Assembly (NCBI GenBank): GCA_039725955.1
Contig: CP091034.1
Location: forward strand, 310,001 to 374,000
DNA from: Sinorhizobium sp. B11
GTDB taxonomy: Bacteria > Pseudomonadota > Alphaproteobacteria > Rhizobiales > Rhizobiaceae
Length of the DNA stretch: 64,000 bases
Reading direction: 5' to 3'
The notes beneath the pieces are model-generated. The model saw only the letters and a program-made list of their open reading frames with translations, had not been told where the DNA came from and did not search any database. Made by a program: the position numbers and the translations under genes. How positions within the stretch are numbered: position 1 is the first letter of the stretch; each line of letters starts with the position of its first letter. Shown piece after piece: positions 1 through 13,845 of this stretch.

Positions 1-598
1 CGCATTCGCCGCCGGTGCCGACATCAAGGAAATGCAGCCGCTCGATTTCGCCGAAGTCTACAAGAGCGATTTCATCAGCGGCTGGGACGAGATCGCCAAG
101 GCCCGTAAGCCGATCATCGCAGCTGTCAGCGGCTTTGCGCTCGGCGGCGGATGCGAGCTTGCCATGCTTTGCGATTTCATCATCGCCTCGGAGACGGCAA
201 AGTTCGGCCAGCCGGAGATCACGCTGGGCGTCATTCCAGGCATTGGCGGCTCGCAGCGCCTGACGCGCGCGGTCGGAAAGGCCAAGGCGATGGATCTGAT
301 CCTGACCGGCCGGATGATGGACGCAGCCGAAGCCGAGCGCGCGGGACTCGTTTCGCGTGTGGTGGCACCGGAAAGGCTGCTGGATGAAGCGCTGGAGGCG
401 GCAACCAAGATCGCATCATTGTCTCGGCCGTCGGTTCTGATGGCAAAGGAGGCGGTCAGCCGCGCCTTCGAGACGACGCTGGAGGAGGGCTTGCGTTTCG
501 AACGCCGCCTCTTCCAGAGCCTCTTTGCGACCGAGGATCAGAAAGAGGGCATGGCCGCCTTCATCGAAAAGCGCAAACCTGCCTTCAAGAACAGGTGA
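1..598 (+). CDS. Enoyl-CoA hydratase (crotonase family), 5' end cut by the window
   Basis: Hydrates 2-trans-enoyl-CoA to 3-hydroxyacyl-CoA in fatty-acid beta-oxidation. The frame is open from base 2, so the N-terminal part lies outside the window; about 198 residues are visible of a family length near 257. The visible part begins with [11 protein letters not shown], the crotonase oxyanion-hole and CoA-binding segment. The two catalytic glutamates expected in hydratases are both present, in GGGCELAM and in [12 protein letters not shown], which argues for a true hydratase rather than an isomerase or inactive homologue. The usual C-terminal helix with [12 protein letters not shown] and a basic tail (EKRKPAF) ends the protein. 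Family assignment is secure; the exact substrate chain length cannot be read from sequence. Confidence 0.9.
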
Positions 599-13022: not shown

Positions 13023-13051
13023 CTTGCAGCAGGCAAGCGTCGTCCCCATAT
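13023..13051 (+). promoter_or_regulatory. RpoH-type promoter of hsp20
   Basis: CTTGCA (13023-13028) and CCATAT (13046-13051), the latter within CCCCATAT, are 17 bases apart, an excellent match to the heat-shock sigma consensus (CTTGAA-N17-CCATNT). Transcription would start near 13058, just before the predicted thermometer hairpins. Confidence 0.65.
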
Positions 13052-13059
13052 TAGCGATA

Positions 13060-13109
13060 CCCGGATGCTGCATGTGAGGTCCGGGAAGGTCGCTTGCATC
13101 AAGGACTTT
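13060..13109 (+). promoter_or_regulatory. ROSE-type RNA thermometer in the hsp20 leader
   Basis: The leader can form two adjacent hairpins. The first pairs CCCGGA (13060-13065) with TCCGGG (13080-13085). The second pairs AAGGTCGCT (13086-13094) with AGGACTTT (13102-13109) around a 7-base loop. The second sequesters the Shine-Dalgarno AGGA (13102-13105), 9 bases before the ATG, by pairing it with UCGCU and leaving a bulged G. UYGCU opposite AGGA with a bulged G is the hallmark of ROSE elements, known upstream of small heat-shock genes in Bradyrhizobium and Agrobacterium. The two-hairpin form resembles the short ROSE-like type described in Agrobacterium. Confidence 0.65.
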
Positions 13110-13114
13110 GGAAG

Positions 13115-13540
13115 ATGAGCCGCATTACCCCTTTCGCCAGCCCGCTGCTTTTGGGCTTCGATGCCATGGAAAAGACGCTCGAGCGGATTTCCAAGGCCAG
13201 CGACGGTTATCCGCCCTACAATATCGAACGCATCGCCGCCGGTCACGACGCGCCCGAGCGGCTTCGCATCACGCTTGCAGTCGCTGGTTTCAGCGAAGAA
13301 GAGCTTGATGTGTCAATCGAGGAAAACCAGCTTCTGATCCGCGGCCGCCAGGTCGATCAGGGCGAGCGCGATTACCTCTATCGCGGCATTGCCGCCAGAC
13401 AGTTCCAGCGCACCTTCGTTCTCGCCGATGGCATGCAGGTCTTGGGCGCAATCCTTAAGAACGGCCTGCTTTCGGTTGATCTAATTCGCCCGGAACCGGC
13501 GCGTATGGTCAAGAAAATTAACATTTCGGTTTCACAGTAG
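13115..13540 (+). CDS. Small heat-shock protein, Hsp20/alpha-crystallin family
   Basis: ATP-independent holdase that keeps unfolding proteins soluble. The 141-residue product has a short N-terminal arm (MSRITPFASPLLLGFDAMEK) and an alpha-crystallin domain (residues 35-130, with LRITLAVAGFSEEELDVSIE, LLIRGRQ, AARQFQRTFVL and KNGLLSVDL). It belongs to the IbpA-like class found in multiple copies in rhizobia. ATG 13115 is fixed by AGGA 9 bases upstream, which is also the site masked by the predicted thermometer. A heat-shock promoter precedes it. A DUF1150 gene follows 47 bases later, a pairing seen often in this order. Confidence 0.93.
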   Translation: MSRITPFASPLLLGFDAMEKTLERISKASDGYPPYNIERIAAGHDAPERLRITLAVAGFSEEELDVSIEENQLLIRGRQVDQGERDYLYRGIAARQFQRTFVLADGMQVLGAILKNGLLSVDLIRPEPARMVKKINISVSQ

Positions 13541-13587: not shown

Positions 13588-13845
13588 ATGTTGATGAAAG
13601 AAGCCACGTCGCGTCTGACCAAGTCTGAACTTGCCGGTATCGGCAATGGCGAGGTCGCCTATATCCGCAAAATTCGCAATGAAGAGGTCTCCAAATGCTT
13701 CCCCGAGGCGCCGGATATCGATCCGAGCGTTGATCTCTGGGCACTGTTTGGCGCCGATGGTACGCCGATCCTGCTGACCGACAATCGGTCCAGCACCTTC
13801 TTCAAGGCAGCTGAAGACGAACTGAAAACGGTCAGCCTGCATTGA
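13588..13845 (+). CDS. DUF1150 family protein
   Basis: An 85-residue protein of unknown function, conserved in alphaproteobacteria downstream of an Hsp20 gene. The recognisable core is VAYIRKI in the first half and VDLWALFGADGTPILLTDNR in the second. ATG 13588 has GGAGG 7 bases upstream. It has no predicted membrane segment or signal peptide and is probably a small cytoplasmic protein. Cotranscription with hsp20 (gap of 47 bases, no terminator seen) suggests a role in the heat response, but no function is established to my knowledge. Confidence 0.85.
   Translation: MLMKEATSRLTKSELAGIGNGEVAYIRKIRNEEVSKCFPEAPDIDPSVDLWALFGADGTPILLTDNRSSTFFKAAEDELKTVSLH

Follow-up and report, generated by a model that had tools for sequence, protein, structure and literature searches.

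The 64,000-nucleotide stretch of Sinorhizobium sp. B11 DNA analysed here (the window) raises the question of how the short leader of its hsp20 gene acts, which a first-pass annotation had read as a compact ROSE-type RNA thermometer in front of a small heat-shock gene. Our analysis indicates that the leader is very probably a short RNA thermometer of the ROSE-like type, with an RpoH-type promoter in front of it, a reading that draws on sequence, predicted fold, conservation and covariation, while we infer the transcription start and the temperature response. At growth temperature, the UCGCU of a 3' hairpin (hairpin II) would pair with the Shine-Dalgarno sequence AAGGA, and a bulged G at 13092 would make this pairing easy to melt. 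Heat would then open hairpin II and give the ribosome access, in addition to the heat-induced transcription by RpoH.

For the downstream gene (13115..13540, + strand, ATG at 13115), which encodes a small heat-shock protein of 141 aa, the identification as hsp20 is borne out by a match to PF00011 (E 7.1e-18). An in-frame UUG at window position 13094, seven codons before the ATG, would make the protein 148 aa long; it sits within hairpin II, and the loop lengths that vary among relatives argue against its use. Upstream of the gene we find CTTGCA (13023-28) and CCCCATAT (13044-51), which we take to be the boxes of an RpoH promoter (13023..13051, + strand, from reading the sequence). Because of the position of this RpoH-like promoter, transcription would start near 13058 and give a leader of 57 nt, in agreement with the roughly 57 bases that had been predicted before. 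A CTTG..CATAT promoter also precedes 93/98 orthologous leaders. The element therefore stands where a ROSE-like thermometer is expected, in the leader of a heat-shock gene with a PF00011 product and a heat-shock promoter, the latter recognised by sequence alone.

Hairpin II (13086..13109, + strand) is predicted to mask the Shine-Dalgarno sequence (AAGGA, 13101..13105, + strand, 9 nt from the ATG). Its arms, AAGGUC-G-CUUG (13086-13096) and CAAGGACUUU (13100-13109), place the ROSE motif UCGCU (13090..13094, + strand), which is supported by sequence and conservation, opposite the Shine-Dalgarno sequence with G13092 bulged, and the fold thereby reproduces the central claim of the first-pass annotation. 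The four extra pairs that it had described are likewise present (G13089-C13106, G13088.U13107, A13087-U13108 and A13086-U13109), and two inner pairs, U13095-A13101 and G13096-C13100, are predicted towards the loop. The structural hallmarks of ROSE, U(U/C)GCU facing the Shine-Dalgarno sequence and a bulged G in the 3'-proximal hairpin, are thus found in both fold and alignment. The bulged G is kept in all 64 aligned rows that have a letter there, the rows being fitted to the model, which favours G. Since hairpin II is mostly invariant (97.8% paired in the alignment), it is supported by conservation and not by covariation. The spacing between AGGR and ATG ranges from 4 to 13 nt and is 6-10 nt in 84/98 leaders. 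With a folding energy of -6.9 kcal/mol at 37 °C, hairpin II lies inside the range of -4.1 to -7.6 quoted for thermosensing hairpins of Pseudomonas (PMC3669281).

The transcription start also bears on a two-state switch, in which AGCGA at 13053-57 would pair with UCGCU and free the Shine-Dalgarno site. For an RNA starting at 13050 this pairing is the best fold, with the Shine-Dalgarno sequence unpaired at 0.28 at 30 °C, and a start near 13050 would let AGCGA/UCGCU compete with the thermometer fold; AGCGA precedes the start deduced from the promoter, however, and we regard such a switch as very unlikely. The alternative fold was rejected on this ground and on its distribution, as AGCGA follows the CATAT box in 2/95 leaders and AGCG in 12/95.

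The 5' half of the thermometer fold is formed by hairpin I (13060..13085, + strand), which is supported by fold and covariation and consists of 7 bp, a bulged G13067, 2 bp and a 7-nt loop. The first-pass annotation had described a perfect 6-base hairpin; its six outer pairs stand (CCCGGA, 13060-65, with UCCGGG, 13080-85), but the stem continues beyond them with U13066.G13079, the bulged G13067, which had been missed, C13068-G13078 and U13069-A13077. CCCGGAU hence pairs with GUCCGGG and, past G13067, CU pairs with AG. A strict search for bulged-G hairpins returned nine occurrences in the 128,000 nt of window strand, two of which lie here, 25 nt apart. Among the orthologs, the bulged G of hairpin I is present in 62/62 rows with a letter, in an alignment that was fitted to the structure and favours G. 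In a scan free of such fitting, 80/95 ortholog leaders had a Y[G]C hairpin ahead of the core vs 53/1900 shuffles, and when the stretch before the core was folded at 30 °C, the Y[G]C hairpin appeared in 79/94 vs 30/1880 shuffles. ROSE elements are quoted as having 2-4 hairpins (PMC10474464, PMC9450479), and hairpin I supplies, by fold and covariation, the further 5' hairpin that this requires.

To compare the two hairpins among relatives, orthologous leaders were collected; Hsp20 was matched in 99/100 relatives at E 0.001 and in 266/297 family members at E 1e-40. The sample comprised 237 leaders, 200 of them distinct over 80 nt, and 192/200 distinct leaders retain T[CT]GCT..AGG[AG] within their final 50 nt. 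Of the eight leaders without the core, seven are order-level ones, including one that sits at a contig edge, and the eighth has a doubtful start. From this sample a set of 98 leaders with pairwise similarity below 0.86 was formed by keeping one per group at ≥0.86, the coreless leaders having been left out beforehand (L071-L073, L075-L078 and L161, where L075 is the contig edge and L161 the doubtful start). In L161, model R1 has a match at 82-148 (20.0 bits, E 0.0016), and because this match exists although the tblastn-derived leader has no core, we consider its start codon doubtful. A parse by NUGCY/RGGN left out 48/203 distinct leaders, namely 8 coreless ones and 40 others, in many of which a C-G or U-A pair adjoins the bulge.

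Covariation was counted with the covariance model R2, built from 14 leaders, which aligns 64/98 leaders at E up to 0.06; the 34/98 that it does not reach at this threshold are outside the count. In these 64 aligned leaders, 9/10 pairs of hairpin I are changed on both sides, and the second pair inside its bulge is split almost evenly (CG:29, UA:28). Over the whole structure, both-side changes amount to 130 cells vs 38.9 in shuffles, and 0/500 shuffles reach 130. Paired cells make up 94.1% of the alignment vs 54.7-60.7% after a slide by one column. These data also speak to a reading of hairpin I as a DNA operator palindrome without RNA structure. As an inverted repeat just past the deduced start it could pass for one, but the pair beside its bulge is U.G in 45/59 rows with letters, and only an RNA strand can form U.G; besides, the bulge is asymmetric, and we hold an operator to be highly improbable.

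Within the genome (7.37 Mb, three contigs), model R1 has one strong place, with 69.1 bits, and no second one among the best 150 of 4660 candidates that were scored, where the next reaches 18.1 bits (E 0.32). Both the strict core pattern and its backward control are found a single time in the genome; the core pattern alone therefore proves nothing. Whole-leader minimum-energy folds at 30 °C contain the hairpin-II core pairing in 64/98 leaders and lack it in 34/98. The folding energy of the window leader is unexceptional against shuffles (z -0.92 and -0.69, with folds as good in 28/200 and 49/200 shuffles), and for this reason the case rests on comparison.

The predicted melting behaviour has to be weighed against a rival, namely that hairpin II merely dampens translation whatever the temperature, or that some factor besides heat opens it. 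Its predicted stability is indeed nearly unchanged up to 42 °C, with the Shine-Dalgarno sequence unpaired at 0.02 and 0.08 at 42 °C in two ViennaRNA runs, a calculation that brings out no known ROSE leader clearly. At 42 °C the window sequence is held tighter than the ROSE leaders run alongside: the Rfam-matched leaders L006, L007, L008, L246 and L247 are unpaired at 0.2-0.6 at every temperature with small rises, and in the E. coli ibpA leader the unpaired fraction falls with heat. Since the same calculation gives no clear opening for these ROSE leaders, it decides nothing, and the window element, which has kept the ROSE core, stands before a gene whose promoter is of RpoH type. We therefore think it improbable that heat leaves hairpin II closed, and keep to the reading as a thermometer. 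L008 matches the alphaproteobacterial sRNA family ar15 at 327-439 (minus strand), below threshold (29.7 bits, cut-off 40).

How this element relates to the known ROSE families is less straightforward. An Rfam scan of the window at gathering and at permissive thresholds (E up to 10) returned no family match, so that the check with the Rfam ROSE and ROSE_2 models, as proposed in the first-pass annotation, turned out negative; the window has no match at the curated scores of RF00435 or RF01832, nor at that of RF02523 (ROSE_3). Among 23 orthologous leaders submitted to Rfam, 8 match ROSE_3. In a group of 14, no ROSE match fell below E 8.1, and a further nine included all 8 matches (E 8.6e-6 to 0.027) and one leader without a match, the 8 having been chosen beforehand for a Pseudomonas-like hairpin I. 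The best of them is L095 with 42.4 bits (E 8.6e-6), against a cut-off of 43, and L090 has 39.2 bits (E 5.6e-5). In the other direction, R2 matches the Pseudomonas-type leaders L246 (E 0.0087) and L248 (E 0.02), both weakly, and matches neither L247 nor the E. coli ibpA leader. The ROSE-type assignment is thus well supported by conservation, covariation, promoter and the ROSE_3 matches in those 8/23 leaders selected for hairpin I, but not by Rfam on the window itself: the leader is ROSE-like by structure and belongs to no Rfam ROSE family by score.

The closest parallel is the Pseudomonas ibpA thermometer (RF02523), which shares the two hairpins, a length of about 60 nt, the sHsp gene, a sigma-32-type promoter and the UYGCU/Shine-Dalgarno core in hairpin II (PMC3669281). 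The ROSE_3 model shows the same bulged-G motif in hairpin I as the window, and L095, an ortholog leader from alphaproteobacteria, has 24 consecutive hairpin-I bases identical to those of the Pseudomonas-type L246. From this identity and the ROSE_3 matches we conclude that the two-hairpin design is the one studied in Pseudomonas. In contrast to the Pseudomonas element, the window element is alphaproteobacterial, has a longer hairpin II stem and does not match ROSE_3 in sequence. Classical ROSE (RF00435) has the same Shine-Dalgarno core, and the first hairpin of its model contains an unpaired G (<<<<<<-<<), but it comprises three hairpins over 94 positions, the middle one of which is absent in the window. 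Enterobacterial ibpA (RF01832, ROSE_2) also has the UYGCU core, with a bulged-G hairpin just upstream of the RF01832 stretch (overlapping it by a few bases) in 5/5 loci and E. coli ibpA, and differs by an extra hairpin between the two. In E. coli ibpA, the ROSE_2 match begins at the end of the bulged-G hairpin. ROSE-like elements of ABC-transporter genes share U(U/C)GCU and the bulged G opposite the Shine-Dalgarno sequence, in a stem with a crystal structure; they differ in the genes that they precede, and no first-hairpin bulged G is mentioned in the accessible text (PMC11342760).

The compactness emphasised in the first-pass annotation is therefore real in comparison with the three hairpins of RF00435, but not new, as two-hairpin ROSE has been described in Pseudomonas (PMC3669281), which makes the window element an Rfam-unlisted case of a known kind. 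In Mesorhizobium loti, all class A sHsp genes, four of them named, are reported to have a ROSE element, and orthologs of the window hsp20 may already be among them (PMC3989490). For Sinorhizobium meliloti, two ROSE candidates are named, before ibpA and SMb21295 (PMC2873474). The switch is of an ordinary kind in an Rfam-unlisted, compact and widely conserved form, a predicted thermometer that is widespread in alphaproteobacteria and goes unrecognised by the Rfam models in the window. Its noteworthy part is the recurring first hairpin with a bulged G.

What this first hairpin does is the second question of the locus. In Pseudomonas, temperature is sensed by hairpin II alone while hairpin I stays closed, and the function of the ROSE 5' hairpin is called not fully understood (PMC3669281). 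Hairpin I is itself stable and conserved, with a bulged G of its own; it probably aids folding or message stability, and it may serve a second regulator. By analogy with the self-repression of IbpA, free Hsp20 might bind the bulged-G hairpin I and block translation until it is titrated away by its clients. This proposal is compatible with the thermometer, and we put it forward tentatively, as one that we lean against. ibpA and ibpB of E. coli are repressed by IbpA through their leaders, for which R93 is needed, and ibpB is so repressed although IbpB, by its sequence, has no such Arg; moreover, the RNAs bound by IbpA seem to be structured ones like thermometers, with conservation in alphaproteobacteria suggested (PMC10474464). 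The accessible text of that paper gives no mapped IbpA site on its own message. By-eye comparison with E. coli ibpA DNA shows that the window Hsp20 keeps both critical residues, R95 (GIAARQF) being the equivalent of IbpA R93 and Y32 (GYPPYN) that of Y34, and among ortholog loci covering the respective site they are kept in 177/177 (R95) and 237/237 (Y32).

The distribution of the hairpin-I motif, defined as Y[G]CY opposite RG, is in line with such a role. It occurs in 5/5 hsp20 leaders of the genome. The four besides that of the window are ROSE-type too, three of them by RF00435 (two copies over the cut-off and one below) and one by eye and scan. The latter is the fifth hsp20 (L002, 1880-2030, minus strand), whose leader has GUCGCU..AGGAGGAC and the bulged-G hairpin GCGGAC[G]CC without a match to an Rfam ROSE family. 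Among alphaproteobacterial paralogue leaders, 33/40 carry the bulged-G hairpin I, and 39/40 proteins have the Arg; these leaders were taken in list order with one skipped, and all contain, within their final 150 nt, a UYGCY..GGR core by a loose definition. When the bulged base was required to be A, C or U instead, a hairpin of this geometry was found in 0/40. In 60 gammaproteobacterial sHsp loci, the motif precedes 21/37 genes that encode the R93-type Arg vs 0/23 that do not, an association uncorrected for shared ancestry; as the loci are related by descent, its Fisher value (2.5e-6) should not be taken as a true probability. The background is 19 in 159,297 nt (0.024 per 200 nt). Classical RF00435 leaders of other genomes have the motif in 6/8, at a high shuffle rate (147/800), and RF02523 leaders in 3/7 (15/700 shuffles), the misses being L249, which has a bulged U, and L250-L252, in which the model is placed on a hairpin further along. 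Both the ibpA and the ibpB leader of E. coli carry a bulged-G hairpin; that of ibpB (AUGCUC[G]CC guca GG|GAGCAU; L253, 4440-5600, ibpAB) resembles that of ibpA.

Against a chaperone-binding hairpin I stands the confounding by ancestry, as R93-type sHsps may just be the lineage with ROSE leaders. By the strict rule, the motif is absent in 16/37 R-type gamma leaders, 13 of which are among the 20 of the E. coli order (7/20 with the motif, compared with 14/17 in the Pseudomonas family). E. coli rpoH, which IbpA is reported to target, lacks the bulged-G hairpin, and so do the two rpoH-type genes of the genome. In Pseudomonas, hairpin II alone is still temperature-responsive, and a broken hairpin I opened the Shine-Dalgarno site with no protein needed (PMC3669281). 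The wider proposal that the ROSE first hairpin is a regulatory box conserved in both alpha- and gammaproteobacteria, and that the sHsp itself would read its bulged G (Y[G]CY vs RG), remains speculative and a shade less likely to us than the binding of Hsp20 to hairpin I. If true, ROSE leaders would be two-input devices that sense temperature through the 3' bulged-G hairpin and free chaperone through the 5' one, and the window leader would be their minimal form, both of its bulged-G hairpins sharing one motif within 50 nt. Occurring with R93-type sHsps and before E. coli ibpA and ibpB, the bulged-G hairpin would be one candidate both for the 5'-hairpin function and for the IbpA site. A conserved bulged G in hairpin I found no mention in the accessible literature, from which subscription ROSE papers are excluded, and the word "bulge" is absent from the main text of PMC3669281; we do not claim novelty.

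Among named records, the closest proteins are those of Rhizobium and of Rhizobiales isolates. metK (TIGR01034) is the third gene downstream of hsp20, and the gene numbering of R. leguminosarum UPM791 places the sHsp RLV_2751 near RLV_2756, a methionine adenosyltransferase (PMC11784457); given this closeness, the window hsp20 is probably the ortholog of RLV_2751. ROSE elements are reported for lentil-specific sHsps of that strain, and the accessible text holds no such statement for RLV_2751 (PMC11784457). Directly 3' of hsp20 lies a DUF1150 gene (13588..13845, + strand), which is probably in the same operon and is a strictly kept partner, following hsp20 in 137/137 loci that have flanks.
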